NCBI RefSeq assembly: GCF_026151205.1
Contig: NC_087083.1
Location: forward strand, 124,001 to 188,000
DNA from: Bolinopsis microptera
Taxonomy: Eukaryota > Ctenophora > Tentaculata > Lobata > Bolinopsidae
DNA: 64,000 nt
Direction: 5' to 3'
Shown in pieces: positions 5,478 through 57,700 of the stretch (its first letter is position 1; every line of letters begins with the position of its first letter). Both the position numbers and the translations under genes were made by a program. The notes beneath the pieces are model-generated. The model was not told where the DNA came from. It ran no database searches and saw only the letters and a program-made list of their open reading frames with translations.

Positions 5478-5735
5478 AAAACCTCAATTTCAGGATATTG
5501 GATATATGGTAAAACAGATGAATCATAATTTATCAATATAACACTTTGCACTTCAGTTACAATGCTGTGCATATACTTTTATATTTGCTTGCCCTTTATC
5601 AAGCACACGTTGCTTGTTCACATAATTTGTAGCTTTATTATGCACTCGCATAAACTTTTTAAATGATCGTGCACTTATACTTTTACATTTATAAACTATA
5701 CAAATGTTTGGACCAACAATCGATTTATCTCCAGC

Positions 5736-5817
5736 TAATCACGTGGCTCGAACACAGTTCTCTGATTGGTTGGTTGATGCCACGTGACTAAAATACAGCT
5801 CCCCGATTGGCTGATTA
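5736..5817. repeat. Two dispersed units of the CCAAT/E-box minisatellite
   Basis: TCTGATTGGTTGG..GCCACGTGACTAAAATACAGCTCC..GATTGGCTG matches the 41-bp unit of the array at 13721-14975. It lies about 270 bp beyond the stop codon of the same gene that hosts that array. The upstream unit is diverged (TAATCACGTGGCTCGAAC). Confidence 0.7.
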
Positions 5818-6087
5818 AAGAAATGATATATCGCAGCATGTAAGGAGTTCAATACAGTCATTCCCTAATAATCAACCCTTAACTAAAATCAAAATCCAAC
5901 ATAAACTCTTCTCAAGCTCGCGCACTGGTAATCCTCTGAACTGTCTTCTTGGACCTCTGAACGGGAACAGCTGAACTGAGTGGTCTCTGTAACATAGCCG
6001 GGGGTGCCGCTCTGCTGCTTAGATGGGATCTAATGTTACGGGTTCTGTTGCTTGCGGAGGAAGAGGAGGGGGCTCTGTTCGGGGTGG

Positions 6088-9000
6088 TTAGAAGCCGGGG
6101 TCCTGCAGTTTGGGGTCGCCATACTCGTTCTCGTGCATACTCTCGTAGTAACTGTGGGGAGGGGGTGTTAGTGGTGGGGTGGGAGTGTTAGTGGTAACTG
6201 TGGGGAGGGGGTGTTAGTGGTGGGGTGGGAGTGTTAGTGGTAACTGTGGAGAGGGGGTGTTAGTGGTGGGGTGGGAGTGTTAGTGGTAACTGTGGGGAGG
6301 GGGTGTTAGTGGTGGGGTGGGAGTGTTAGTGGTAACTGTGGGGAGGGGGTGTTAGTGGTGGGGTGGGAGTGTTAGTGGTATCTGTGGGGAGGGGGTGTTA
6401 GTGGTGGGGTGGGAGTGTTAGTGGTAACTGTGGGGAGGGGGTGTTAGTGGTGGGGTGGGAGTGTTAGTGGTAACTGTGGGGAGGGGGTGTTAGTGGTGGG
6501 GTGGGAGTGTTAGTGGTAACTGTGGGGAGGGGGTGTTAGTGGTGGGGTTGGAGTGTTAGTGGTAACTATGGGGAGGGGGTGTTAGTGGTGGGGTGGGAGT
6601 GTTAGTGGTATCTGTGGGGAGGGGGTGTTAGTGGTGGGGTGGGAGTGTTAGTGGTAACTGTGGGGAGGGGGTGTTAGTGGTGGGGTTGGAGTGTTAGTGG
6701 TAACTGTGGGGAGGGGGTGTTAGTGGTGGGGTGGGAGTGTTAGTGGTAACTGTGGAGAGGGGGTGTTAGTAGTGGGGTGGGAGTGTTAGTGGTAACTGTG
6801 GGGAGGGGGTGTTAGTGGTGGGGTGGGAGTGTTAGTGGTAACTGTGGGGAGGGGGTGTTAGTGGTGGGGTGGGAGTGTTAGTGGTATCTGTGGGGAGGGG
6901 GTGTTAGTGTTGGGGTGGGAGTGTTAGTGGTATCTGTGGGGAGGGGGTGTTAGTGGTGGGGTGGGAGTGTTAGTGGTAACTGTGGGGAGGGGGTGTTAGT
7001 GGTGGGGTGGGAGTGTTAGTGGTAACTGTGGGGAGGGGGTGTTAGTGGTGGGGTGGGAGTGTTAGTGGTAACTGTGGAGAGGGGGTGTTAGTGGTGGCAT
7101 TGGAGTGTTAGTAGTAACTGTGGGGAAGGGTGTTAGTGATGGGGTGGGGGTGTTAGTGGTAACTGTGGGGAGGGGGTGTTAGTGGTGGGGTGGGAGTGTT
7201 AGTGGTAACTGTGGGGAGGGGGTGTTAGTGGTGGGGTGGGAGTGTTAGTGGTAACTGTGGGGAGGGGGTGTTAGTGGTAACTGTGGGGAGGGGGTGTTAG
7301 TGGTGGGGTGGGAGTGTTAGTGGTAACTGTGGGGAGGGGGTGTTAGTGGTGGGGTGGGAGTGTTAGTGGTAACTGTGGGGAGGGGGTGTTAGTGGTGGGG
7401 TGGGAGTGTTAGTGGTAACTGTGGGGAGGGGGTGTTAGTGGTGGGGTGGGAGTGTTAGTGGTAACTGTGGGGAGGGGGTGTTAGTGGTGGGGTTGGAGTG
7501 TTAGTGGTAACTGTGGGGAGGGGGTGTTAGTGGTGGGGTGGGAGTGTTAGTGGTAACTGTGGAGAGGGGGTGTTAGTAGTGGGGTGGGAGTGTTAGTGGT
7601 AACTGTGGGGAGGGGGTGTTAGTGGTGGGGTGGGAGTGTTAGTGGTAACTGTGGGGAGGGGGTGTTAGTGGTGGGGTGGGAGTGTTAGTGGTATCTGTGG
7701 GGAGGGGGTGTTAGTGTTGGGGTGGGAGTGTTAGTGGTATCTGTGGGGAGGGGGTGTTAGTGGTGGGGTGGGAGTGTTAGTGGTAACTGTGGGGAGGGGG
7801 TGTTAGTGGTGGGGTGGGAGTGTTAGTGGTAACTGTGGGGAGGGGGTGTTAGTGGTGGGGTGGGAGTGTTAGTGGTAACTGTGGAGAGGGGGTGTTAGTG
7901 GTGGCATTGGAGTGTTAGTAGTAACTGTGGGGAAGGGTGTTAGTGATGGGGTGGGGGTGTTAGTGGTAACTGTGGGGAGGGGGTGTTAGTGGTGGGGTGG
8001 GAGTGTTAGTGGTAACTGTGGGGAGGGGGTGTTAGTGGTGGGGTGGGAGTGTTAGTGGTAACTGTGGGGAGGGGGTGTTAGTGGTGGGGTGGGAGTGTTA
8101 GTGGTAACTGTGGGGAGGGGGTGTTAGTGGTGGGGTGGGAGTGTTAGTGGTAACTGTGGGGAGGGGGTGTTAGTGGTGGGGTGGGAGTGTTAGTGGTATC
8201 TGTGGGGAGGGGGTGTTAGTGGTGGGGTGGGAGTGTTAGTGGTAACTGTGGGGAGGGGGTGTTAGTGGTGGGGTGGGAGTGTTAGTGGTAACTGTGGGGA
8301 GGGGGTGTTAGTAGTGGGGTGGGAGTGTTAGTGGTATCTGTGGGGAGGGGGTGTTAGTGGTGGGGTGGGAGTGTTAGTGGTAACTGTGGGGAGGGGGTGT
8401 TAGTGGTGGGGTGGGAGTGTTAGTAGTAACTGTGGGGAGGGGGTGTTAGTGGTGGGGAGGGGGTGTTAGTGGTATCTGTGGGGAGGGGGTGTTAGTGGTG
8501 GGGTGGGAGTGTTAGTGGTAACTGTGGGGAGGGGGTGTTAGTGGTGGGGTGGGAGTGTTAGTGGTAACTGTGGGTAGGGGGTGTTAGTGGTGGGGTGGGA
8601 GTGTTAGTGGTAACTGTGGAGAGGGGGTGTTAGTGGTGGGGTGGGAGTGTTAGTGGTATCTGTGGGGAGGGGGTGTTAGTGGTGGGGTAGGAGTGTTAGT
8701 GGTAACTGTGGGGAGGGGGTGTTAGTGGTGGGGTGGGAGTGTTAGTGGTAACTGTGGGGAGGGGGTGTTAGTGGTGGGGTGGGAGTGTTAGTGGTAACTG
8801 TGGGGAGGGGGTGTTAGTGGTGGGGTGGGAGTGTTAGTGGTAACTGTGGGGAGGGGGTGTTAGTGGTAGGGTGGGAGTGTTAGTGGTAACTGTGGGGAGG
8901 GGGTGTTAGTGGTGGGGTGGGAGTGTTAGTGGTAACTGTGGGGAGGGGGTGTTAGTGGTGGGGTGGGAGTGTTAGTGGTAACTGTGGGGAGGGGGTGTTA

Positions 9001-12000
9001 GTGGTGGGGTGGGAGTGTTAGTGGTAACTGTGGGGAGGGGGTGTTAGTGGTGGGGTGGGAGTGTTAGTGGTAACTGTGGGGAGGGGGTGTTAGTGGTGGG
9101 GTGGGAGTGTTAGTGGTAACTGTGGGAGGGGGTGTTAGTGGTGGGGTGGGAGTGTTAGTGGTAACTGTGGGGAGGGGGTGTTAGTGGTGGGGTGGGAGTG
9201 TTAGTGGTATCTGTGGGGAGGGGGTGTTAGTGGTGGGGTTGGAGTGTTAGTGGTAACTGTGGAGAGGGGGTGTTAGTGGTGGGGTGGGAGTGTTAGTGGT
9301 AACTGTGGAGAGGGGGTGTTAGTGGTGGGGTGGGAGTGTTAGTGGTAACTATGGGGAGGGGGTGTTAGTGGTGGGGTGGGAGTGTTAGTGGTAACTGTGG
9401 GGAGGGGGTGTTAGTGGTGGGGTGGGAGTGTTAGTGGTAACTGTGGGGAGGGGGTGTTAGTGGTGGGGTGGGAGTGTTAGTGGTATCTGTGGGGAGGGGG
9501 TGTTAGTGGTGGGGTGGGAGTGTTAGTGGTAACTGTGGGGAGGGGGTGTTAGTGGTGGGGTGGGAGTGTTAGTGGTAACTGTGGGGAGGGGGTGTTAGTG
9601 GTGAGGTGGGAGTGTTAGTGATGACTCTGGGGAGGGGGTGTTAGTGGTGGGGTGGGAGTGTTAGTGGTAACTGTTGGGAGGGGGTGTTAGTGGTGGGGTG
9701 GGAGTGTTAGTGGTAACTGTTGGGAGGGGGTGTTAGTGGTGGGGTGGGAGTGTTAGTGGTAACTATGGGGAGGGGGTGTTAGTGGTGGGGTGGGAGTGTT
9801 AGTGGTAACTGTTGGGAGGGGGTGTTAGTGGTGGGGTGGGAGTGTTAGTGGTAACTGTGGGGAGGGGGTGTTAGTGGTGGGGTGGGAGTGTTAGTGGTAA
9901 CTGTGGGGAGGGGGTGTTAGTGGTTGGGTGGGAGTGTTAGTGGTATCTGTGGGGAGGGGGTGTTAGTGGTGGGGTGGGAGTGTTAGTGGTAACTGTGGGG
10001 AGGGGGTGTTAGTGGTGGGGTGGGAGTGTTAGTGGTAACTGTGGAGAGGGGGTGTTAGTGGTGGGGTTGGAGTGTTAGTGGTAACTGTGGAGAGGGGGTG
10101 TTAGTGGTGGGGTGGGAAAGTTAGTGGTAACTGTGGGGAGGGGGTGTTAGTGGTGGGGTGGGAGTGTTAGTGGTAACTATGGGGAGGGGGTGTTAGTGGT
10201 GGGGTGGGAGTGTTAGTGGTAACTATGGGGAGGGGGTGTTAGTGGTGGGGTGGGAGTGTTAGTGGTAACTGTTGGGAGGGGGTGTTAGTGGTGGGGTGGG
10301 AGTGTTAGTGGTAACTGTGGGGAGGGGGTGTTAGTGGTGGGGTGGGAGTGTTAGTGGTAACTGTGGGGAGGGGGTGTTAGTGGTTGGGTGGGAGTGTTAG
10401 TGGTAACTGTGGGGAGGGGGTGTTAGTGGTTGGGTGGGAGTGTTAGTGGTAACTGTGGGGAGGGGGTGTTAGTGGTGGGGTGGGAGTGTTAGTGGTAACT
10501 GTGGAGAGGGGGTGTTAGTGGTGGGGTTGGAGTGTTAGTGGTAACTGTGGAGAGGGGGTGTTAGTGGTGGCATTGGAGTGTTAGTAGTAACTGTGGGGAG
10601 GGGGTGTTAGTGGTGGGGTGGGAAAGTTAGTGGTAACTGTGGGGAGGGGGTGTTAGTGGTGGGGTGGGAGTGTTAGTGGTAACTATGGGGAGGGGGTGTT
10701 AGTGGTGGGGTGGGAGTGTTAGTGGTAACTGTGGGGAGGGGGTGTTAGTGGTGGGGTGGGAGTGTTACTGGTAACTATGGGGAGGGGGTGTTAGTGGTGG
10801 GGTGGGAGTATTAGTGGTAACTGTGGGGAGGGGGTGTTAGTGGTGGGGTGGAAGTGTTAGTGGTAACTGTGGGGAGGGGGTGTTAGTGGTGGGGTGGGAG
10901 TGTTAGTGGTAACTGTGGGGAGGGGTGTTAGTGGTGGGGTGGGAGTGTTAGTGGTAACTGTGGGGAGGGGGTGTTAGTGGTGGGGTGTGAGTGTTAGTGG
11001 CAACTGTGGAGAGGGGGTGTTAGTGGTGGCATTGGAGTGTTAGTGGTAACTGTGGGGAGGGGGTGTTAGTGGTGGGGTGGGAGTGTTAGTGGTAACTGTG
11101 GGGAGGGGGTGTTAGTGGTGGGGTGGGAAAGTTAGTGGTAACTGTGGAGAGGGGGTGTTAGTGGTGGGGTTGGAGTGTTAGTGGTAACTGTGGAGAGGGG
11201 GTGTTAGTGGTGGGGTGGGAGTGTTAGTGGTAACTATGGGGAGGGGGTGTTAGTGGTGGGGTGGGAGTGTTAGTGGTAACTGTGGGGAGGGGGTGTTAGT
11301 GGTGAGGTGGGAGTGTTAGTGGTAACTGTGGGGAGGGGGTGTTAGTGGTGAGGTGGGAGTGTTAGTGGTAACTGTGGGGAGGGGGTGTTAGTGGTGGGGT
11401 GGGAGTGTTAGTGATAACTGTGGGGAGGGGGTGTTAGTGGTGGGGTGGGAGTGTTAGTGGTAACTGTGGGGAGGGGGTGTTAGTGGTGGGGTGGGAGTGT
11501 TAGTGGTAACTGTTGGGAGGGGGTGTTAGTGGTGGGGTGGGAGTGTTAGTGGTAACTATGGGGAGGGGGTGTTAGTGGTGGGGTGGGAGTGTTAGTGGTA
11601 ACTGTGGGGAGGGGGTGTTAGTGGTGAGGTGGGAGTGTTAGTGGTAACTGTGGGGAGGGGGTGTTAGTAGTGGGGTGGGAGTGTTAGTGGTAACTGTGGG
11701 GAGGGGGTGTTAGTGGTGGGGTGGGAGTGTTAGTGGTAACTGTGGGGAGGGGGTGTTAGTGGTGGGGTGGGAGTGTTAGTGGTAACTGTGGGGAGGGGGT
11801 GTTAGTGGTGGGGTGGGAGTGTTAGTGGTAACTGTGGGGAGGGGGTGTTAGTGGTGGGGTGGGAGTGTTAGTGGTAACTATGGGGAGGGGGTGTTAGTGG
11901 TAACTGTGGGGAGAGTATAGCTACAAGCTAAGGCAGTAGTCTCCTGATCCTGTACATTGCTTTTATTAACCTATACTGTGGGCATGTTGTGGTGGTGAAA

Positions 12001-15000
12001 TTAGGTGAAGTGGACTTGAAGTTCAGTCTATAGATTGGTACATTTGTACGGTAAACCCTTATCTCCTTATGTACGTTGTTTCACGTGATCTATAAACCCA
12101 CAAAGCGATAACAAAATGTTAGTATGTTAACATTTTATCTCAACACTTATTTACTTCGGACATTCCAACAGCCACATTGTTACACAAGTGTGTAACCAGC
12201 CAATTACAGGAAGCCGAAGGATTCAATTGTACATTAGGCCAGTGACGGTTAAGGTAGTGTGTACCATACTTTCTTCGCCCGAGACTTTGCTGCAATGGGC
12301 AGCTCCTCATATTTTAACCCTCACACCCGATTTCTCGAGTATTTGGCTGAGTGGACCGAGGGGCTGCAGACCACTCATGGGCTGATAGACCACTCAGGAT
12401 CCTTAGCTGAGCGTCGACGACGGACGACGCTCACCCCACGGCTAGTGACAGAGTCGGGAATCGAACCTGGTACCTCAAGCAATACCAGGCAGATTGACCA
12501 ACTGAGCCACTAAGCCGTGTCAAAATGTCTCACTTATATTGATATCAGTAAACCTCGAAGGTAATAAAAGCAGTTATAAGATTTCAGTTATCAGTTAACT
12601 TATAAAGTTATAAAAGCTCTGCAGTTACAAGGAAAGAAGGTACGTAAGGTATGTAAGGTATGTAAGGTATGTAAGGTATGTACTATGTTACCTCGTGTTC
12701 CGAAACTGGTAAGCTACCCACTATTCTGTATAAAGCAGGTCTATAGAGTGGATCGCCTCCCAACGTGTACTCATCACTGCAAAAACAAGTTGTTAGGAAT
12801 TTTGAAAATCCGTTTTTTTGTTTGTAAACCTTGTACTATAGATGTGGAATCTGGTGGGGGAAGGGGGTATATTGTTATCACACGTGACAGCTATTAACCA
12901 ACCAGCTTCCTCAATAAGTCTATTAACCGGAACCCATCAAACCCTAGAATCACTGTCACGAGTTAAAAAGTATGCTTCAACAGTCAACTCCCCACCAGAA
13001 TTCAAATATATTCTTTGGCATACAATTCGTTTTTTTCAAGGCAAAATGTTTAAAGAAGAATAATAATTATCATTAAGCGAAATTTCTTCGAACATTTGCA
13101 TTACACTGAAAGCGGGTAGGAAGAAAAAATATCATGTGCAATATAAAGAAAGATAAGGAGCACGATATGAGAAGAAAAAAAAAAGAAGTGTACTATAGGT
13201 CTACATCTGATAAAGAATAGTTTCTCTATGAGTAGGAAATATTAAGTACAATATAAAGAAAGATAAGGAGCACGTGATAAAAAGAAAATACCTCTGATAA
13301 AGTAGTTTCTCTCTCTGCGTCGGAGCACACCTCAGTTTCACATCACCTGGCGGTATGTATCCCTCCGCAAACATTAGCTCTACCTGAACAACACTCGCTG
13401 GTTAGTCATAACTACATTATGCTGCAGGTCACGTGACCAAAAAGGACTGGGTTTGTTTTAAAATTTAAAATATGATTACATAATTTGAAAGATTGGTTGT
13501 ATTTGGGCAAAAATCAGATCATTTCTAAATCATATTATCTAGATCATATTTAGATCTTGGAACCAACCTTCCTATTGATGACAGATTTCCACTTTCTCTT
13601 GATAGCTTTAGTCTCAATGTCGAAAACTTTGCACTGGTACTCTCTTGCAGTGTCGATAGCCTTGCACGTGTTCACCAGCTTGCAAGATAGTGCCTTGTTA
13701 GTGCTCACTGCCCAACGTTCCTAAAATACAGCTCTCTGATTGGTCGGTTTGAGCCACGTGACTACAATGCAGCTCTCTGATTGGTCGGTTTGAGCCACGT
13801 GACTACAATGCAGCTCTCTGATTGGTCGGTTTGAGCCACGTGACTACAATGCAGCTCTCTGATTGGTCGGTTTGAGCCACGTGACTACAATGCAGCTCTC
13901 TGATTGGTCGGTTTGAGCCACGTGACTAAAATACAGCTCTATGATTGGTCGGTTTGAGCCACGTGACTACAATGCAGCTCTCTGACTGGTCGGTTTGAGC
14001 CACGTGACTACAATACAGCTCTCTGATTGGTCGGTTTGAGCCACGTGACTACAATGCAGCTCTCTGATTGGTCGGTTTGAGCCACGTGACTACAATACAG
14101 CTCTCTGACTGGTCGGTTTGAGCCACGTGACTACAATGCAGCTCTATGATTGGTCGGTTTGAGCCACGTGACTACAATACAGCTCTCTGACTGGTCGGTT
14201 TGAGCCACGTGACTACAACGCAGCTCTCTGACTGGTCGGTTTGAGCCACGTGACTACAATACAGCTCTCTGACTGGTCGGTTTGAGCCACGTGACTACAA
14301 TAAAGCTCTCTGATTGGTCGGTTTGAGCCACGTGACTTAAACGCAGCTCTCTGATTGGTCGGTTTGAGCCACGTGACTACAATAAAGCTCTCTGACTGGT
14401 CGGTTTGAGCCACGTGACTACAATAAAGCTCTCTGATTGGTCTATTTGAGCCAAGTGACTAAAATGCAGCTCTATGATTGGTCGGTTTGAGCCACGTGAC
14501 TTCAACGCAGCTCTCTGATTGGTCGGTTTGAGCCACGTGACTACAATAAAGCTCTCTGACTGGTCGGTTTGAGCCACGTGACTACAAAAAGCTCTCTGAT
14601 TGGTCGGTTTGAGCCACGTGACTTCAACGCAGCTCTCTGATTGGTCGGTTTGAGCCACGTGACTACAATAAAGCTTTCTGACTGGTCGGTTTGAGCCACG
14701 TGACTACAATAAAGCTCTCTGATTGGTCTATTTGAGCCAAGTGACTAAAATGCAGCTCTATGATTGGTCGGTTTGAGCCACGTGACTTCAACGCAGCTCT
14801 CTGATTGGTCGGTTTGAGCCACGTGACTACAATAAAGCTCTCTGACTGGTCGGTTTGAGCCACGTGACTACAATAAAGCTCTCTGATTGGTCTATTTGAG
14901 CCAAGTGACTAAAATGCAGCTCTATGATTGGTCGGTTCGAGTCAAAGGTTTAAAATAAAGCTTTTTAATTGGTCGATAAAGACTAACTGTCTAAATTCTT

Positions 15001-15916
15001 AAATTACTCAAATTTAATCATGATCGATTCAAATTTATGAAAAATCAGAAAATATTGTTGAGACTTGATTGCAGTCGTTAAGCAACGATTTATCTACTTG
15101 AATAACAGCGCCTTTCTTATTTCAATTCAAGACACCTTCATATGTTCACATAGAAGCTTTGCTGCCCGGTGGTCCTCATTAAGACCCAAAAAAGATATGA
15201 AGCACATATCGTGCATGTTAATATATATATCATTATGTTAATATATTATTATAAAAGTATAAATATGTGAAAATGATTGAACACTTTGACAATGACTATT
15301 GTTCTGAAAAACTCCACCTTATAGAGTCTTATACAACTTCATAGTTTTATAAAAGTCTAAACTTGAGCCTAAGCTTGACTTCGCAGTTTTATAATAATCA
15401 AAACTTGAGTCACAAACTTCATTATAGTCGTTTAATTTCAAAAGTTTAGAGTGAAAGTCTCGGAATAAATGAACCAACAAACATGACTGATCTAGGACAA
15501 CTCGATTTATAATGACTAAAGAAGAGGCACAAACTTACCTTCAAGTTATATATACAAAATTAAAAAAAAGTTCAAAAATACATTGTATTGGCACTCACAT
15601 ACCAGGGGCTATATTCATTTACTAATCTTATACTATCACAGTTTACGCAGTGATAATTTTAACAGCCCAGTAAACGCACATCGTAACCTAATTTTGATTC
15701 AACTAATTTCAGTAAAATATAATAAAGTTAAACTTTATTTCATTACAAACCTTTCTAATAGCTTAGTAGTCGTACATCGTAACTTAATTTTTATTTAACT
15801 TACTTTAATAGAATGAAATAAAGTTAAGTTTTAGAAACCAGTGCTCACTATACCTGTTTGGCAACATCATCCTTCCGGGAATCCTTCTTGACCCTTGTAG
15901 ACGAATCAATTGCCAT
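6088..15916 (-). CDS. Small four-exon protein (123 aa), unknown, possibly a ciliary/microtubule protein
   Basis: Minus-strand exons 15854-15916, 13568-13720, 13292-13383 and 6088-6151 join in phase (63+153+92+64 nt). The start is MAIDSSTRVKKDSRK and the end YGDPKLQDPGF then TAA. Exon 2 begins ERWAVSTNKALSCKL and is rich in Lys/Arg and Cys; exon 3 contains GYIPPGDVKLRC and REKLLYQ. I do not recognise the family. The short, charged, RW- and YYE-containing sequence recalls small axonemal microtubule inner proteins, and an RFX-type X-box lies about 490 bp upstream, but this is only an inference. Intron 1 carries a 41-bp minisatellite directly at the exon 2 acceptor. Intron 3 (about 7.1 kb) carries the 46-bp minisatellite directly at the exon 4 acceptor, plus a tRNA-SINE. 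The exon 3-to-4 join is the least certain, because another frame is open through exon 4. Confidence 0.55.
6149..11912. repeat. 46-bp G-rich minisatellite, about 125 copies, built on a 3' splice site
   Basis: Each + strand unit reads TAACTGTGGGGAGGGGGTGT then TAGTGGTGGGGTGGGAGTGT then TAGTGG. On the transcribed (minus) strand a unit gives two CACTAAC branch-point-like words, a long C-rich tract and CCCCACAG|TTAC, which is exactly the acceptor and first bases of the exon ending at 6151. Variant units (TATCTG, GGAGAG, GGTTGG, GGCATTGG, GTTGGGAG) recur and show higher-order copying. The + strand has runs of 4, 5, 4 and 3 G per unit, so G-quadruplexes are possible. It is not telomeric sequence. 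Confidence 0.95.
12285..12525 (-). mobile_element. tRNA-derived SINE
   Basis: On the minus strand an A-box TGGCTCAGTTGG (12498-12509) is followed 30 bp later by a perfect B-box GGTTCGATTCC (12457-12467), as in tRNA-derived RNA polymerase III promoters. About 170 bp of non-tRNA body follow, running to lower coordinates. The sequence between the boxes does not fold into a convincing anticodon arm, so this is a SINE head rather than a working tRNA gene. The left boundary is approximate, and no target duplication was found. Confidence 0.75.
12526..13291. other. Intron sequence with small tandem repeats
   Basis: This is the donor-proximal part of intron 3 of the small minus-strand gene. It includes five 9-bp units AAGGT(A)YGT-like (AAGGTATGT) around 12647-12690. 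A roughly 112-bp imperfect duplication begins at CAATATAAAGAAAGATAAGG (about 13139 and 13250). Its second copy runs into the exon 3 donor at 13291, and the first copy carries a degenerate version of the exon end (CTATTCTTTATCAGATG on the minus strand). Short ORFs here have no recognisable product. Confidence 0.6.
13721..14975. repeat. 41-bp CCAAT/E-box minisatellite, about 30 copies, abutting a 3' splice site
   Basis: The + unit is ACTACAATGCAGCTCTCTGA then TTGGTCGGTTTGAGCCACGTG. Each unit holds an inverted CCAAT box (ATTGG) and a perfect CACGTG E-box at fixed spacing. The array starts at the first base of the intron side of the exon 2 acceptor (13720/13721). On the minus strand the acceptor GAGCTGTATTTTAG| is itself the end of a unit, and internal variants carry the identical GAGCTGTATTTTAG. 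The last units near 14930-14975 are degenerate. Open frames across it (MAQTDQSESF-type) are only repeat translation. Confidence 0.95.
15676..15836. repeat. Diverged short direct repeat, about 94 bp apart
   Basis: CATCGTAAC(C/T)TAATTTT begins both copies (about 15680 and 15774). Both end in a stretch with AATAAAGTTAA(A/G)(C/T)TT. They lie in intron 1 of the small minus-strand gene. No coding potential. Confidence 0.6.
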
Positions 15917-25852: not shown

Positions 25853-26562
25853 TATAATTGCTACACCCTGCTGTAATTGCTGCACCCTGCTGTAATTGCT
25901 ATACCCTGCTGTAATTGCTATACCCTTCTGTAATTGCTGCACCCTGCTGTAGTTGCTGCACCCTGCTGTAATTGCTGCACCCTGCTGTAATTGCTGCACC
26001 CTGCTGTAATTGCTGCACCCTGCTGTAATTGCTGCACCCTGCTGTAATTGCTGCACCCTGCTGTAATTGCTGCACCCTGCTGTAATTTTTGCACCAACTG
26101 CTGTAATTTTTGCACCCTGCTGTAATTGCTGCACCCTGCTGTAGTTGCTGCACCCTGCTGTAATTGTTGCACCCTGCTGTTATTGCTGCACCCTGCTGTA
26201 ATTGCTGCACCCTGCTGTAATTTTTGCACCCTGCTGTAATTGCTGCACCCTGCTGTAATTGCTGCACCCTGCTGTAATTGTTGCACCCTGCTGTAATTGC
26301 TGCACCCTGCCGTAATTGCTATACCCTGCTGTAATTGCTATACCATGCTGTAATTGCTACACCCTGCTGTAATTGCTGCACCCTGCTGTAATTGTTGCAC
26401 CCTGCTGTAATTGCTGAACCCTGCTGTTATTGCTATACCATGCTGTAATTGCTACACCCTGCTGTAATTGCTGCACCCTGCTGTAATTGCTGCACCCTGC
26501 TGTAATTGCTGCACCCTGCTGTAATTGCTATACCCTGCTGTAATTGCTGCACCCTGCTGTAT
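25853..26562. repeat. 19-bp minisatellite, about 37 copies
   Basis: The unit is CTGCTGTAATTGCTGCACC on the + strand, with GCTATACC, TTTTTGCACC and TTGTTGCACC variants. Because 19 is not a multiple of three, each minus-strand frame cycles through the same 19-residue peptide period (QQLQQG, AAITAGC, SNYSRV) without stops. This explains the 100-122 aa open frames, which I do not call genes. Confidence 0.95.
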
Positions 26563-30679: not shown

Positions 30680-33600
30680 TCATTGCAAATTCCGCCAATA
30701 TCTCTTGTCATAACTCAAATTACGGAGATAATGCAGGTCAAAGATATTATTCAAATAAAGATTTCTTTTACATAAATCATGCACAATCAGTGAGAATAGA
30801 TTGCTTTGGGGTCTTCCTCTTCTCCCTGGTAAGTCCAGTGTATTGATGGCAAAAATGAGGGAAGAAAACGCTGGTCCGTCAATAGGACCCCGCAAAACAT
30901 GTCCTAACATTCTCCACCGACTACGGGCCACTTTTTCTGACAATGGTTCAGCATTGCAGCGTTTATACAAGTTTTTGTTGGAGATGACTCCTGGGTACTT
31001 TATATTCAAAATAGTGCGAAGATGTCTGCGGTGAACAACATCTAGTTTTTCAAGGATTATTTTGGGGACGGCCCAACAGGATGAGTTGTACATAAGAACC
31101 GATACGACTAAAGCATTATACAGTATTAGACGTTTGTTTAGGGGCAGTTTATCACTCCAGGCCTTCTTGTAATTGTTAAAGGCAGCATATCCCAGGTTTA
31201 TGCGACGCTGAATATCAGCTTTGCTACACAAGACGGACCCTAGAGTGATACTTTTCCTCCATGCTTCATTCCCCGACACTAATTTTCCATCACTGTCGAC
31301 TTCACCCGTACTAGCTAAATAAACATGAGTGAAGTCCGTTTTGTCTTCATTGACAAAGAGGTTCCATTTCTCGAGTATAGCTGTTGCCTGGGGCAAAATA
31401 GCTCTCAAGTTGTCTTCCTCTTCATCATTGAAGTCAACATCATCAGCATATTCAGTGTCAAGTGGAAGGCCAGCAATAGTAATCGGGGGGATCGGCCTAT
31501 CTAAACTGATTGTTATAGTCCATCTAAGTTCATTCAAAGCACCAGCCAAGACAAGGGTGAACAGACAGCCGGATAGACAGTCACCCTGGAAAGCTCCAAG
31601 GAGACTTAAAAACTCAGCTGAAAGAACTCCATTTACCTTCACCCGTAGCTTTGTGTTGGACAACAACAACCGGACAATCCTCAGCTCATCCTCAGTACAG
31701 CCACACAGTTTCAGGAGTTCAAGAATCGTAGTGCGCTTGATCGTGTCAAACGCACTAGACATATCAATGCCCATGCGATGATACTCCCATTTCTTCCTTT
31801 GGACAACTGACAGTAGAACTCGCTGACACCAAACAATATCAGCACAAGAACGAGCGCGTTTGTATGCACACTGCCATGGACCAGTGAAGGCGTTCACTTT
31901 TTCTTCTATCCTTTTAAGAGTAGCCATAGACAGAATTTTTCTGGCTGCATTGGACAAGGTGAGTGGACGTAAATTCTTCAGAGGACCAATAGGTTTTTTT
32001 GGCTTCTGTAAGGGTGTTATAGTAGCCTCACCAATGGAAATGGGGAAAGTATGTGTCTCGAAACAACTGTTTATGATTCCAGCATAATGTTCATGGACTG
32101 TACTATTAGAGTACTTAATTAGCTCGTTGGGTATTCCATCGGGACCATTTGCCCTCCCATTTTTCAAGCTAGAGGTGGCTGCATGTATTTCAACTCCAGT
32201 AAAAGGGACATTGAGAGCACGTGGTAGACCCTCAAAAGGCTCGAGAGGTTGCTCATTGTGAGTCAGCTGTTTTTCGAGATAGTCTCTAACAACAGAAGCT
32301 TTCATGTCGTCAGATGCAATCAAACAGCCATTTTCATCATGAACACCAATCGAGTTATTAGGTGGTTTACTTTTCTGAAGATGTCTTACTGCTTCAAACA
32401 TTTTCCTTGAATCGTTTGTGTTAGTAATATCACTATAGGTCTGATCAGCTTGAGCAGACCTCACTTCAACTAATCTTTTCTGGATACTATTAGTGAGGTG
32501 GTTGATGGATGACCTCAATGTAGTTCGATCAAGAGATTGATTATTGTTAAGTAGCTGTCGGAGATCGTGACGCTTTTCAACAAGCTCTTTGAGAGTGTCA
32601 TCACTGCTGTGATGTTTCAAGCGAGCTTTAGGTTTTGGGCCGATGGAAACATTGGCAGCATCACGAATATGAGACATAAGATTTTGAAGGTCGGCATTTG
32701 GATCGTTGCTGGTCACAAAATTTGAGAACTTGCCTTCAAGGGCCAAGTGATATTTATGTTGCATATCTTTGTTGCTTACAAGTTCTGATATATTATAAGA
32801 AGGAACACGACGTTGTTTAGGTTTGAAACAAAGATGAATGTTGCTGAAATTGATGCGAGCAATGACAAGTCTATGATCTGAAAATGTTTTAGTACCAGCA
32901 TAAGTTCTTGATTGAGTCAAAAGACACTTAGATCTATTTCGGCATAGTATGTAATCTATTTGAGAGTATACAGGCAGTGTCTTCTTACTGTACCGACCAG
33001 CCGACCAATCCTTCCGCCAACCAGTAAATGATGTAACACGTCTGCTAGGTTGTATAAAACTAGTGTTCACAGCAAACAGATTATTTTCTGAGATAAAATC
33101 CAGTAATCTAGAACCATTTTCGTTCCTTACTCCCATTCCGTATTTCCCCATATATCTACCAAAACCCTGTTCAATATCAGAAGGGGATAATTTACCCAGT
33201 TTTGAATTAAAGTCACCCAGAAATTGCAACTCCACATTAGAGGGAACATTCTTGGCCTCTCTTAGCTGCCCATAAAAGTTATCCAAAACAACTGGATTTT
33301 TACGGACTAGCCCCTGATGTGGACAGTAGGCATTGATCACCCTGCAACGTAGGGGTGTACCGCTACGTGAGGGGATGCAAATATCGACATAGCATACCCG
33401 GTCACTGATGTACTTCCAGCAAACCACATAGTTCATCATGCGAGGACTGATTATAAAACCCAAGCCTCCATGGCGACTATCCAACTGCTCGAACAGAAAC
33501 AAGTTAAAACCGTTGCGCAAAACAAGGCTGTCTGATTCGGTGACTTTAGTTTCCTGCAGAGCGCAGATGTCGACATTGTACTTTTCACAGTCTAATCCTA

Positions 33601-33781
33601 GTAACTCACGTTTACTATGTAGGCTATCATCTTGCTGAACACCGAGCCCACGGATGTTAAATGTGGCGAAGCTGATCATTAATGCAATGGTTGTTGATAC
33701 AAATGATTTCTTCTTCGGGTTAAATATGTTGGAGTTGGCGTCACCACCGTCTCCACCGCTGACATTACTCGAACGGACCAT
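30680..33781 (-). mobile_element. APE-type non-LTR retrotransposon, intact 1033-aa ORF
   Basis: A single uninterrupted ORF carries an N-terminal apurinic-type endonuclease: FNIRGLG (about residue 42), LQETKV (about 76), LGDFNSKLG (about 189), QIDYIL and SDHRLVIA (about 300). A reverse transcriptase follows with A GIDMSSAFDTI, B GAFQGDCLSGCLFT and C EYADDVDF. It ends in a C-terminal region containing HRRHLRTILNIKYPG and RSRWRMLGHVLRGP. No gag-like ORF1 lies upstream, as in RTE-like clades, but the clade is not settled. The 3' end lacks a long poly-A and runs into TTTTTAGTTTTTGTTTTAG. The intact frame implies recent activity. Short + strand frames inside it are antisense artefacts. Confidence 0.9.
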
Positions 33782-51700: not shown

Positions 51701-54700
51701 GACCTTGAGAAGCTTCTCCATGACTGTGTCATCTTCAGGGATGGTGGGAGTGAGGGTGTTGCCGCCCAGAGCGGGGGCTTCCACTGCCAGCAGCACCTGC
51801 AGGGGACTGGGTTAGTTCACGGACAGGGTGCTAAAAAGTAAGATCATCAACAAATAACACCTGTATTGGACAGGGGTTGGTTTATTGAGAGGTGACAGGG
51901 TGGGAGATTCTGTATTTATAATACTGGGAGGTATAAGGTCATCAACTCAACAAGTAGTTGTTGTTGTTGCTTTATTGTCATCGGTTGTATGTTAAAGTTA
52001 ACTGTTAGACAGGGAGAAAGTTTCTCTGGAAACTTCCATGTTGTAGTAAGTGTGAGCCATAAAGAAAAAAGTCTCTTAGACTTAGTGCAGTAAAATGTGA
52101 TTTATACAGATACTGATATCTATCGCATTACCTTTTTTAATAAGGTTGAGGTGAGATTCATAAAATTTGAAAATGAACTCAAAAAATTAAAAAACACGCA
52201 CTTAAACTTATTTTAGCGTTAATATTTTGTTTCTTATCGCATAGACAGACTCGCCTTTGAATCTTAATACAACAAAAGCACTACAAACAACAAAAAATAG
52301 CTTCACAGCACCGAACTTTAACCGATATATATATAATATATATATATAGGTTATTAGGAAAATAATAATTATAGTACTGTCTTATATAGTTGCTCACTAG
52401 CTTTGCTATTTCATTGTGTCGTAAGCACATATTTTACTGCGCCCTATGTATATCTGTATATATTGTCTTTCCGGACTTTGAAAAACTTGAAATTATCATT
52501 TTATTAATTTCTTCAACTACTTTCTACCACTATCAGCGTATTCTTGACGGCATGTATATTTCTCCAATACATTATCATATTTGACAATCTCAAAGTATAA
52601 AACCTAAGCTTGTATAAATGGTGAGCCCAAGTTCGCATTCCAGAACTAATATAACGACTCAAGCGAGACTAATTAAACTCCACGTATGCTTTGCTCCTTC
52701 TTAAAATATGTTATTACGTATATTGTAACTACACACCCCATCGTCATCTTTAAATCTGACTCGTTTCTTGTCCTTAATGTCCTTACTACAGATAGCGTTG
52801 GACCTCTCCCTACGAATAGCTTTCAAGCTCATCACTCCAGCAACTCAAACCACCTAATTTCTTGCAAAATCACAAAGCAGGCGGAATATTTAAGATGGGA
52901 TAATTAGGACGATGAAATTAAAACGGAAGGCTCTGCAGGGACAACATGAACGGTAAGACACATATATGTAAATATAGCAAACACTCTCCAGATATCCGTT
53001 CTGTGGCAAGAATTTGCTGTCAACACATATTTCTAAGTGTCCTGTAAGGGGTATCACGTGACAATGGGTACAGATGTGCCAGGTATACACAATTAATCTG
53101 TAGAGAAACTTCTCGATCTTCTGATGTATACCAGCTAGATTACTGGGTACTATAATATACAGTGTCATGTGTGCAGTGGTGTGGTTGGTTTCATGTGGTG
53201 ATCTAATGGTTTCAAGGGTGGGGCTGGAACTCCACCCTCATTGAAGTGTGTTGTAAATTCAAGTGGAACCTGCTTGTGAGGCTTATAGTACAGATTCAGT
53301 TTCACGCCTATGATAACAAAGAACAGTGTTTACAGATTAGCAGTTAGCACACCACACTTATAGCATGATCAACAACTAACATCTTTTGGCAACAATTCAA
53401 ACCAGATATCAAACACGTTTGTGGCAGTTCACTTTGAAATTTAAAACAACTTACGTCATAAAGGCAAACAATCGACAACAACGGACAACGTAAACCACAT
53501 CAAATATATAATTAAATAGGGAACTGACTAAAGATAAAGGGGCAGCTGATATTGCAGGGTGTACCACAGAAAGTGTGACAATTTTTTTGAGAAATGATAC
53601 AAAATATTATGAAGGAGCAGCTGATATATTTACCTGTGAAAGTACATCTTCCCATTCGCTAGTCCAATGTAGAAGAGGTTTGACAGAAAGGTGGTTTCTT
53701 CCCACGCTATTCTTCCTCCTGGGCACTTGTAGGTAGTCCATGTCAAGTACCATCGTGTTCTCACAATGTATCTTGCTTTCAGGAACTATCTTCAGAGATT
53801 CTTTCTCTTTAGATACTGTGACAAATCCTTTACTGTGTAGGATATGAACTTTCTAAATGAAAAAGAGAGCGGCTGCACTTGGTTTATCTTCGTTCAGGAA
53901 CAAAGCAAAGATTATACTAGTATAAAAGCGAGTAGAGCGAGTCTTCAACTTTAGGAACAAACTGTCGAGTAGAGCGAGTCTTCAACTTTAGGATCCGGTT
54001 GCTGATGATCTACAAGCTACAATCACGCAGAAATTAGAGAAATACAAAACAACAGTATATTAACAATAATATATCCTCGACAAATATGCAAGTGACCGAG
54101 GGGTGGGTAGCAGCAAAGGGAGCGAATATGATAGGTGAGAGAGTTCGAGACTGTGAAGGAACTAGAATCCCAAATAACTCAATCGGTGCCTTTTGTAATG
54201 ATCACATAATGTTATCAGCGGTGCCAGGTGATTAGGTTAGAGGCCTGGTTATGTGTGTGGTAAAGGGGACTGGTTATTTACGGGTGCTGTAAAAGGGGCA
54301 GTGCCATGTTCTGTGAGCTCATAACTACGTGTAGTGCTTGTTATTATGATGTTTGTAATTCAGAGCAGATGGGATATGATGTAGAGCAAGAGAGAGTATA
54401 CTGAGGTGACCGGCAGACTGTGGATATAGAAGTGGGGATAAGTAAAGAGCATACATTGTGACGTTCACGTATTTATAAATACTCGGACTAATTTCCGTAA
54501 TTAGATTAAATAAAGCGCCCAGTAATACAAAATTTTATGAAGGAGTAAAGCGACCAGTAATAACAAAGTTGATAAAAGTGAAAATCATGCGTTACATGCT
54601 TAAACCGCCTTTCTTTTGACAACTTCTACACTAATAGCACCACAAACTCTACTTTCCTCATTGACTTTAATGGATCATGTCAAACGAAGAATTGTATCTA

Positions 54701-57700
54701 CTTGATAAAATGCTTGCATAAAGATTGTAAATATCAATACATTGGGCACACGATCAATTCAATTGCTTCTAGAATAAGCCAACATAAATCTACTATAAAA
54801 CGTGGTGGAGGCTGCAAAATACTTCGTGATCACTTCACTAAAATTCATAGCACTGAAAACATGGCTATCATGCCGATTAAACTCTTACCTAATAATACTA
54901 CATTGAAAGAAAAAGAAGATATTGAAGAAGCTTGTATGTTGCAGTTAAATACAGTTTTCCCATATGGTCTCAACGTTCGTGTTAAAAAGAAGAACATACT
55001 AGATGCCTGCAATATTGTGATGAACTCTAAAACAACGATTTATAGTCAGTTCGATATAGTTAAAATAAATAGACATTCACGTGGAGGTAGATTCATTAGT
55101 AATATAGTAAGTGAAAGACAAGAATTTGATATCGATGTATTTTATGAAGATTTGCTGGATGATGATAATATGATTGATATGCATGATATTCGTACTAATC
55201 TATGTAATCTTAAAAAGAAACAACTTAAGTTAGTATATATTAAAGCTATATCTTATATTAATAATTTTAATAGTAGTATAACGACATATAGATTTCATAA
55301 AATTCTCTTAGTTAAAGATTTATCATGGTTTTACCTTACAAGAATGGGTTTAGCGTGTAAGAATAATAGTAAATCAAATTCTTTTATTGTAGTTAATTAT
55401 GTTAATAAATTTGTCGAGTATATTGATTTTCGAAAGATATTTAAAATGGAACAAGTTACTAAAGCTGCACCATTCAAGTCAAAGTATCATCAGCAACCTA
55501 CATTGTCCTACAAATACCCTCCAACAATCAGATCTAAAGTACTTAACTACAAAAAAGTATATAATGAAGCTAACATTGACTCAGAAACATTGAAATGTAA
55601 TTGTGCATCAAGTCGTTATACAGACCCTACTCATAAACATGTCATTACAGGAGAGCTATCAATGATCAGTAATGATAAACTTCGTAATCTCCTCATGAAG
55701 GGATTAAATTATAGAGACCAAGCTAAACCATGTACTGAAAAAGCTTTAAAATCAGTAAAGACGGCACTCAAAAGCTATTGCGATAAATTGTCTAATTTAT
55801 GGCATAAACCTATAGAAGAGTTTCAAGAGTGGAAAACACTAATCATAGAGCAAGTGAAAATTCAACTGCAAGGAGCTAAACCATATCCCTATTATTCAGT
55901 ATTATCAGATGTTGAAGTCTTAGCAGATTTAGATGAGCTTCATAAAGATTTTGTATTGGTTCCTACCGATAAAGCCAAAAATAATATTACTATTGTTTGT
56001 AAAAAGTTCTATATTAGTATGATTGAAAAGGAATTATCATCGAATACATTTACTAAAGTTAATCGTTCAGAAGATGATATAATTAATGAGCATAAAGCAT
56101 TCTTACTTAAACATCGTATTAAATTTGATGAAGATAATAGCAAATTACCTTATTTATATATTACACCAAAACAGCATAAAAAGCCAGTCGGAGTTAGATA
56201 TATAACGTCTGGTAGTGGATGTAGTTTACAACAATTATCAGTCTATCTTAGCATTTGTATTAAATCTATGCTTCACTCAGCTAAAAATAAATCTATATAT
56301 GATAATAAATTTCACGTTAGAAATGATTATTTTGTTATTGATAATAATGAGCCTATCTTAGATTTTCTTAGTTATGATAATACCCAGAAAGGTTTAAAGT
56401 CTGTCAGTACTTATGATTTTTCAACTTTATATACATCTATTCCTCATATTCAATTGAAGGATAATCTTCGTATGTTTGTAGAAAGAGTATTTGATTTTAA
56501 AGATAAGTCTTATATTATTCCTAATCTTTATACTAAGAAGGCCTATTTCTCTGATAATGTTAGTAAAAATAAAGTTCATTTTTCTAAAGATACACTTTTG
56601 GAATGTCTTAATTATTTGATTGATAATTCTTATGTTACTTATCAGGGTCAAATTTATAGACAAGTTATTGGAATACCAATGGGTACCAATGCAGCACCAC
56701 AAATAGCTAATGTTTATTTACATGTTTACGAATATAAATATATTAAACTTTTGATAGAACAAGGGGATACAGAAAATCTAAAAAGATTAAAAGACACATT
56801 TCGTTATCAAGATGATTTGATAGTTTTTAATGATTTCAATTTATTACAGAATGTATTAGAAGATATTTATCCTAAGGAAATGATAGTAAATAATACTAAT
56901 ATTTCGGCTCGTAAATGTTGCTATCTAGACTTAAACATTAGTATTTATCAAGGAAAGTTTAGAGTGACGTTATATGATAAAAGAAAAGATTATAATTTTA
57001 AAGTTATATCTTATCCTTTTTTGGATGGAAACGTTCCAAATAATTTGTCTTATGGAATATTTATTTCTCAATTAGTACGATTAGCCAGAATTAATTCGAC
57101 ACTTAAGGGTTTCAAAAATTGTGTTACCGAACTTTTAGGTAAATTGGTTGCGCAAGGATTTAAGTTAGCTGCTTTGCGCAACAAGTTTGTCAAGTTTTAT
57201 AAATCAAGATTAAATATTTGGGGTAAATATGGTAGTGATATTTATGATGAATTTATTGAAATGTTTCAATCACCTAATATTATTTTGTAATTTGTATCGA
57301 CATATATCGTTTTTCAGTTATATAAGTTACCTAATATCTATTAATTATTCTAGTATTTGTGATTAATTTGTATTGATTTATTATTTGTGACTTATAAATT
57401 AGTAACCATTATTTTACCGTCTAAAAAATTTTTTTGTCAAAAATTAATTTTATGAAGGAGTAAGTTGACAAAAGATGCGCATTCGTATATTCATTTATTG
57501 CATGTTTAATTTGTTTTGTTGTGTTTAATTTACGATTATTTGCATTTGAGATTCTGTGATTAAATTTATTTTGTTGATTGTAATGTTATGATATTGCATA
57601 ATTTATTGTAAATGTAATATATGTTTCAGAAAATTATGTAATGTAATGCGATGGAGGTTCTTTAAGCAGGCAATTCCAGTCCAAACCCTGGAAACATGAC

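Follow-up and report, generated by a model that had tools for sequence, protein, structure and literature searches.

A probable mirage-type minisatellite of 126 acceptor-like units at the end of an intron in the ctenophore Bolinopsis microptera, and tandem copies across splice sites in motor genes of the same genome

Tandem repeats that include a splice site have been described in amphioxus as mirage minisatellites. In the amphioxus globin genes, and in Adh3 as cited with them, the repeats lie over either boundary of an intron, and regular splicing seems to be undisturbed, as suggested by reverse-transcription PCR (PMC3087553). Mirages also occur in the amphioxus troponin C and PGBD5 genes (PMC3902484). 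Here, we describe an array found in a 64,000-nucleotide (nt) stretch of the genome of the ctenophore Bolinopsis microptera (assembly GCF_026151205.1, contig NC_087083.1, positions 124,001 to 188,000), which we call the window and by whose own numbering all positions in it are given. On its minus strand, 126 tandem copies of a 46-bp unit, each with a 3' splice site sequence at its end, occupy positions 6152–11903 and abut the last coding exon of a predicted gene. As in the amphioxus mirages (Adh3, the globins BflGb6 and BflGb9, troponin C and PGBD5), there are many units with splice signals, which evolve in concert within a cluster. The amphioxus units, however, measure 10–160 bp, and the BflGb6 haplotypes have 6 and 3 copies, in contrast to the 126 copies of the Bolinopsis array, which belongs to another phylum and whose unit has an exonic part of only 4–7 nt. 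The Bolinopsis array is probably a further mirage-type case, extreme in copy number. No description of a mirage in a ctenophore was found in the available portions of the open-licence literature, where the mirages described were all from amphioxus and the human cases stood apart, and a search by term found no mention of intronic minisatellites in the available text of three ctenophore genome papers (PMC10232365, PMC11797021, PMC12221973).

Among the human cases, the variable number tandem repeat (VNTR) in intron 18 of ABCA7 has a 25-bp unit that opens with the donor GT of exon 18; it ranges from 12 to about 427 units, and one unit is retained in about 2% of transcripts (PMC5954066). Its units carry a splice site, as ours do, but on the donor side, and its polymorphism and splicing were measured in humans, whereas the Bolinopsis array is on the acceptor side. 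A 31-bp VNTR at the junction of exon 13 and intron 13 of human CBS, c.1444_1467+7(16_21), repeats 24 exon and 7 intron bases (PMC2630376, PMC5188458). It likewise has a splice site within the unit, but on the donor side and in 16–21 copies. In human duplicated genes, variable tandem repeats at exon–intron boundaries may form novel introns (PMC2812944), and intron gain through duplicated AG/GT sites has been discussed (PMC3087553). In contrast to such intron gain, the Bolinopsis case amplifies the end of an existing intron and shows no new one.

The units of the Bolinopsis array were delimited on the minus strand by cutting head-to-tail after each AG, so that the invariance of this AG is partly built into the definition. 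Between 11903 and 6152, this gave 120 units of 46 nt, four of 45 nt and two of 26 nt. All 126 terminate in AG and, as none is longer than 46 nt, no AG has been lost. Tandem Repeats Finder (TRF) returned the same period, 46, in two adjoining rows (6148–7278 and 7257–11901, with 96% matches each). The consensus unit, TTACCACTAACACTCCCACCCCACCACTAACACCCCCTCCCCACAG, is present exactly in 58 of the 126 units, which fall into 37 types. The 3' splice site at the end of a unit reads CACTAAC..CCCCACAG, and the second CTAAC is invariant in 120/120 units of 46 nt. The copy number comes from one assembly, which may affect it, but the array is far from a product of chance, which is excluded by its length.

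Both edges of the array share the CTCCCCACAG|TTAC register. At the right edge, the exon start TTACTACGAG at 6151 abuts the last unit in register and with no gap, and at the left edge a partial copy, CTCCCCACAG (11904–11913, minus strand), is joined to unique intron sequence. The repeat thus spans the exon–intron boundary: it includes the acceptor AG and four exon bases, the end of the TRF array, 6148, likewise lying 4 nt inside the exon, and it includes seven exon bases in four variants among the 120 units of 46 nt, in which TTACTAC matches the exon. The exonic part is short, and the sequence that follows the upstream copies, TTACCACTAAC, is distinct from the TTACTACGAG that follows the last one. 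An earlier note on this DNA had described about 125 copies of a 3' splice site, CACTAAC twice per 46-bp unit, and an exon at 6088–6151 that starts in the register of the units. The exact count is 126, CACTAAC occurs 240 times within 11960–6100, and the exon begins as described. The span given there, 6088–11912, does contain the array, but the array proper is 6152–11903, and 6088–6151 is exon.

A search of the assembly with up to three mismatches gave 115 matches to a 54-nt core of the unit and 122 matches to a 28-nt core. The array in the window by itself accounts for 115 and 122 matches, respectively, so no second locus of the unit was found with either core, and the unit does not qualify as a dispersed repeat or transposable element. 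A block of 14 consecutive units, six of them non-consensus, occurs twice, 807 bp apart (8061 and 7254). This points to duplication of the block as a whole and is indirect evidence of length instability; the turnover of the array looks recent. On the plus strand, no G-quadruplex motif with loops of 1–7 was found; with loops of up to 12, there were 98 matches of the G-quadruplex type.

The copies were compared with the acceptors of 77 introns of the same genome whose boundaries were usable. Among 4-mers, TAAC showed the largest excess ahead of these acceptors, being present in 25 introns at −36 to −8 as opposed to 11 at −74 to −46, and the commonest distance from the end of this word to the end of the intron was in the bin of 12–17 nt; the 5-mer CTAAC was too rare among the 77 introns for any peak. 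The second CTAAC of the unit lies 15 nt from the intron end. Judged by this pattern of TAAC positions and by the spacing within the unit, the copies look like competent acceptors. Each unit looks like a complete one, as had been proposed, with a branch-point-like word, a pyrimidine tract, CAG and a few exon bases. Selection on the AG and the branch point was considered as a cause of their constancy and rejected: with 27 variant alleles over 46 columns and homogenised copies, the invariant second CTAAC is not evidence for it.

The array lies in the last intron (13291–6152) of a minus-strand gene model with four coding exons. These are a putative exon 1 (MAIDSSTRVKKDSRKDDVAKQ, 15854–15916), exon 2 (ERWAVSTNKALS...VINRK, 13568–13720), which starts exactly at the end of another array, of 41-bp units, exon 3 (VELMFAEGYIPPGDVKLRCAPTQREKLLYQ, 13292–13383, with the donor junction GAG|GTATTT), and the terminal exon (YYESMHENEYGDPKLQDPGF and a stop, 6088–6151) directly after the last unit. 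The joined coding sequence (63 + 153 + 92 + 64 = 372 nt) is in frame and encodes 123 residues, and AATAAA at 5634–5639 (minus strand), downstream of the terminal exon, is a possible polyadenylation signal. Frames were scored against shuffles with a table of 4,553 codons taken from the exons of kinesin and myosin genes in this genome, which gave z = 2.19, 2.24, 1.37 and +3.03 for exons 1 to 4. In a calibration on the upstream exon pieces of 50 of 99 introns, which is somewhat optimistic because their codons also built the table, true frames had a median z of 2.07 and a 10th percentile of 0.99, and the 90th percentiles of the two wrong frames were 0.83 and 1.09. Codon usage thus supports the exon frame and the joining of 13292 to 6151 put forward in the earlier note (z = +3.03, versus −1.61 for the rival phase-0 frame). 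Within the same intron, a tRNA-like stretch resembling a short interspersed element (SINE) was noticed, by eye only, at about 12440–12520 (minus strand); Rfam had no match at gathering score anywhere in the 64-kb window, and a search of the assembly for the mitochondrial gene COX1 gave none.

The AGs of the array are not equivalent in what they would do to this protein. Translated in the supported frame, only the last of the 131 AGs between 11930 and 6152 yields a tail of 21 residues. The other 130 lead to an early stop: S-Y-H-stop in 106 cases, in which the TAA sits inside the CACTAAC branch-point word, R-Y-H-stop in 13, S-Y-Y-stop in 4, and tails of 2–19 residues in 7. As every other AG truncates the protein, its full-length form needs the last copy. 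The last acceptor also differs in what follows it, the purine fraction of the next 40 nt being 0.575, whereas after the other 130 it averages 0.28 and reaches at most 0.33 (this maximum being taken without the last two sites). The only GT of the consensus unit lies across the acceptor itself (CA|GTTACC) and is not donor-like. The unit therefore has no plausible donor, which makes unlikely the exonised 46-nt units that had been suggested to shift the frame; use of an upstream copy would lead to a stop, usually after three codons.

With a probability of about three in four, we consider the 46-bp array to be a mirage-type minisatellite, the last copy of which is most likely the one spliced to exon 3. 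In such a case, a short segment across the end of the last intron, with the branch point, the pyrimidine tract, the AG and about 4–7 exon bases, would have been duplicated in tandem, after which slippage and unequal exchange would have raised the number of units to 126. The look of the array supports this origin, an amplified acceptor region with a few exon bases, which had already been suggested for it. That exon 3 would be spliced from 13292 to 6151, after the last copy, is most likely why the gene tolerates the array. The last acceptor alone precedes purine-rich exon sequence, which may act as a splicing enhancer, and it alone lies in an exon leading to the poly(A) signal, the upstream copies being embedded in the C-rich repeat; either could help to single it out. 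Were an upstream copy used, the protein would be cut short at a TAA, in most cases the one within the branch-point word, so that leaky splicing would cost about the last 19 residues rather than produce variable exons. In this genome, tandem repeats may grow in introns without avoiding splice sites, only deeper exon sequence staying free, and this would be the simplest reason why arrays recur at such sites.

Several points weigh against this view of the locus. Besides the optimism of the calibration, neither Pfam nor PDB gave a match to the 123-residue protein, and it is consequently codon usage and phase that carry the gene model. Splicing usually favours the first suitable AG downstream of the branch point, and by this scanning view the first acceptor of the array could win. 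Arrays of splice sites are not always harmless either, as exon 19 of ABCA7 is skipped in 12–45% depending on tissue, and the skipping rises with VNTR length (PMC5954066). Finally, with so short an exonic part of the unit (4–7 nt), a C-rich intronic minisatellite that supplied an acceptor also fits.

This last alternative, in which a repeat of independent origin, C-rich on one strand and G-rich on the other, grew in the intron and a copy at its edge was later taken over as the acceptor, has a small but real chance of being correct, and the same gene offers a parallel for it. The array of 41-bp units (13721–14941, minus strand, about 30 copies) ends exactly at the acceptor of exon 2, which is formed by its last copy (CTGTATTTTAG|GAACG), and no exon bases are matched by its unit. 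A 30-nt core of this unit has 156 matches in the assembly, at least 81 of them outside 13721–14941 among the 100 matches listed, and some of the copies elsewhere are themselves in 41-bp tandem, as befits a dispersed repeat family. The exon 2 acceptor therefore looks exapted, unlike the 46-bp unit, which is confined to a single locus. Against an independent origin of the 46-bp array also speak its two edges, both in the CTCCCCACAG|TTAC register, and the kinesin and dynein parallels described below, in which longer coding stretches are held within the unit. Two more copies of the 41-bp unit were seen by eye near 5740–5820.

We regard it as distinctly unlikely that the first, upstream acceptor is used, with the array becoming a 5.8-kb terminal exon or 3' untranslated region and the protein ending in ...LLYQSYH or similar. 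Such use would conform to the usual preference for the first suitable AG past the branch point, and all copies do fit the local acceptor pattern. However, the strong coding character of the 6151–6088 frame (z = +3.03) would then be useless, and purine-rich sequence follows only the last acceptor. The amphioxus mirage genes, moreover, appear to splice normally (PMC3087553).

Little credence can be given to a five-exon model, in which an extra exon (12776–12692) is joined to 6151 in phase 0 to give a protein of 210 residues. All of its introns are GT-AG, the frame stays open for 79 residues past 6151, and the later part of this frame (6087–5912) reaches z = 1.45, slightly less than another frame of that stretch (1.54). 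Yet codon usage opposes the model, with z = −1.61 at 6151–6088 and 0.32 for the extra exon, and the whole 240 nt of the frame are not distinct from shuffles, 107 of 1000 of which reach its score. In the assembly, the 210-residue protein, with its wrong C-terminus, matched its own locus only (five exon-level matches), and the model was rejected. Least probable of all is a switch by which the length of the array would control the mRNA level or the share of truncated protein. The ABCA7 VNTR, whose length correlates with skipping of exon 19 and with reduced expression (PMC5954066), and the recent-looking turnover of the array (the repeated 807-bp block) would suit it, but homogenisation accounts for the invariance of the AG and branch point as well as selection does, and 27 variant alleles over 46 columns are too few for a test.

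Arrays of a similar kind are found at other splice sites of this genome. We surveyed introns of kinesin, myosin and dynein (AAA_6) genes of the same genome, in which exon identity is fixed by family profiles, counting arrays with a TRF score of at least 100. From 100 kinesin and myosin candidates, 99 introns were resolved to GT-AG (61 kinesin, 38 myosin) and one was dropped as unresolved; all 41 dynein introns, which served as a replicate, were kept. Tandem copies covered a splice site in 9 of the 140 introns, or about 1 in 15 of those sampled, at seven donors and two acceptors, so repeats at 5' and 3' boundaries both occur in this genome. Eight of the nine were kinesin introns (8/61), none was from myosin (0/38) and one, at a donor, was from dynein (1/41); kinesin and myosin together thus had 8/99, six donors and two acceptors. 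The nine are spread over about seven genes. Near-duplicate pairs of kinesin introns from duplicated genes (on C11, and on C13 near 4.98 and 5.07 Mb) were kept, and none of them is among the nine. The shuffled-sequence control gave no array of score 100 or more in 3 × 99 sequences.

The number of copies was about five or more in six of the nine introns and two in the remaining three (207, 53 and 38 bp). At least 11 exon bases were included in eight of the nine arrays, the case with a 13-bp unit including none. By TRF edges, the donor arrays took in 26, 30, 27, 12, 20 and 53 exon bases and, in the case of the 13-bp unit, none; the acceptor arrays held 11 (TRF edge) and about 27–29 (by eye). Conserved coding sequence forms part of several units: the exon end INTSLSELG with GTAAGT is present in about 52 copies, the PLVDWVFQ region with GTAAG in about 25, TTTTCTCAG with SFIDLAGS in about 26, and the LFRPVAMTLPDFGLI region with its donor in about 12. 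In the kinesin intron 22511697–22514488, the acceptor chosen by the script was wrong (score −9), and the array covers the true acceptor too. Most of the kinesin and dynein introns with copies across a splice site repeat exon ends or starts.

The chaperonin genes (PF00118) were the discovery set and were kept out of the 140; 13 of their introns were resolved, five were unresolved and two had gaps that were too wide. One of these introns (C13:6710848–6712675) is largely taken up by a 30-bp unit in 61 copies, pyrimidine-rich and with CTAAC words, the consensus of which has no AG and which ends, by eye, about 20 nt before the acceptor. It is an array of branch points rather than of acceptors. In another chaperonin intron, a 20-bp × 2.5 array ends 3 nt before the acceptor, again by eye.

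In the kinesin and myosin genes, arrays take up a mean of 8.8% of the intron bases, compared with 6/99 donors, 2/99 acceptors and, of the exon bases sampled at a distance of over 20 nt from any splice site, 0.5%. In dynein, the intron mean is 3.0%, with 1/41 donors and 0/41 acceptors covered. As the coverage of the sites does not exceed the intron background, splice sites are, by this measure, neither targeted nor avoided. A generous placement null, in which each array was placed randomly in its own intron with overhang allowed, predicted 1.77 donors and 1.77 acceptors, versus 6 and 2 observed. The excess of donors, which makes some bias toward them possible, and the concentration of covered sites in kinesin (8/61, versus 1/79 in myosin and dynein) both weigh against the reading favoured above. 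Since the two measures disagree for donors, and per-base coverage shows no excess, we do not claim targeting; we see the coverage of splice sites as reflecting tolerance. On balance, we lean slightly toward the view that tandem repeats containing splice sites, some with real coding sequence in their copies, are found genome-wide in this ctenophore, in several percent of introns, and that its spliceosome would routinely pick among two to more than 100 near-identical copies.

Studies of how one splice site is selected from several identical ones usually rely on a few engineered sites, and natural arrays would extend them to as many as 126 acceptors at this locus and about 52 donors in conserved motor genes. 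Because the exon bases past the last acceptor differ from those of every decoy within 1–8 nt, ordinary RNA-seq reads can measure this choice. A recurrent set of such arrays in ctenophores, a phylum thought to be the sister group of other animals, would suggest that minisatellites can generally grow past splice sites, and growth of this kind could feed intron change.

Elsewhere in the window, a 19-bp minisatellite of 37 copies (25855–26561) is CAGCAGGGTGCAGCAATTA-like on the minus strand and has many AGs, with no adjoining exon established. An open frame of 902 residues at 54582–57287 has a GIY-YIG nuclease match near its N-terminus, followed by a region that by eye resembles a reverse transcriptase and has no Pfam match. 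It looks like a Penelope-like element in which the nuclease comes first. On the minus strand, at 30683–33781, an open frame of 1033 residues contains endonuclease and reverse transcriptase domains, as in a long interspersed element (LINE)-type element.
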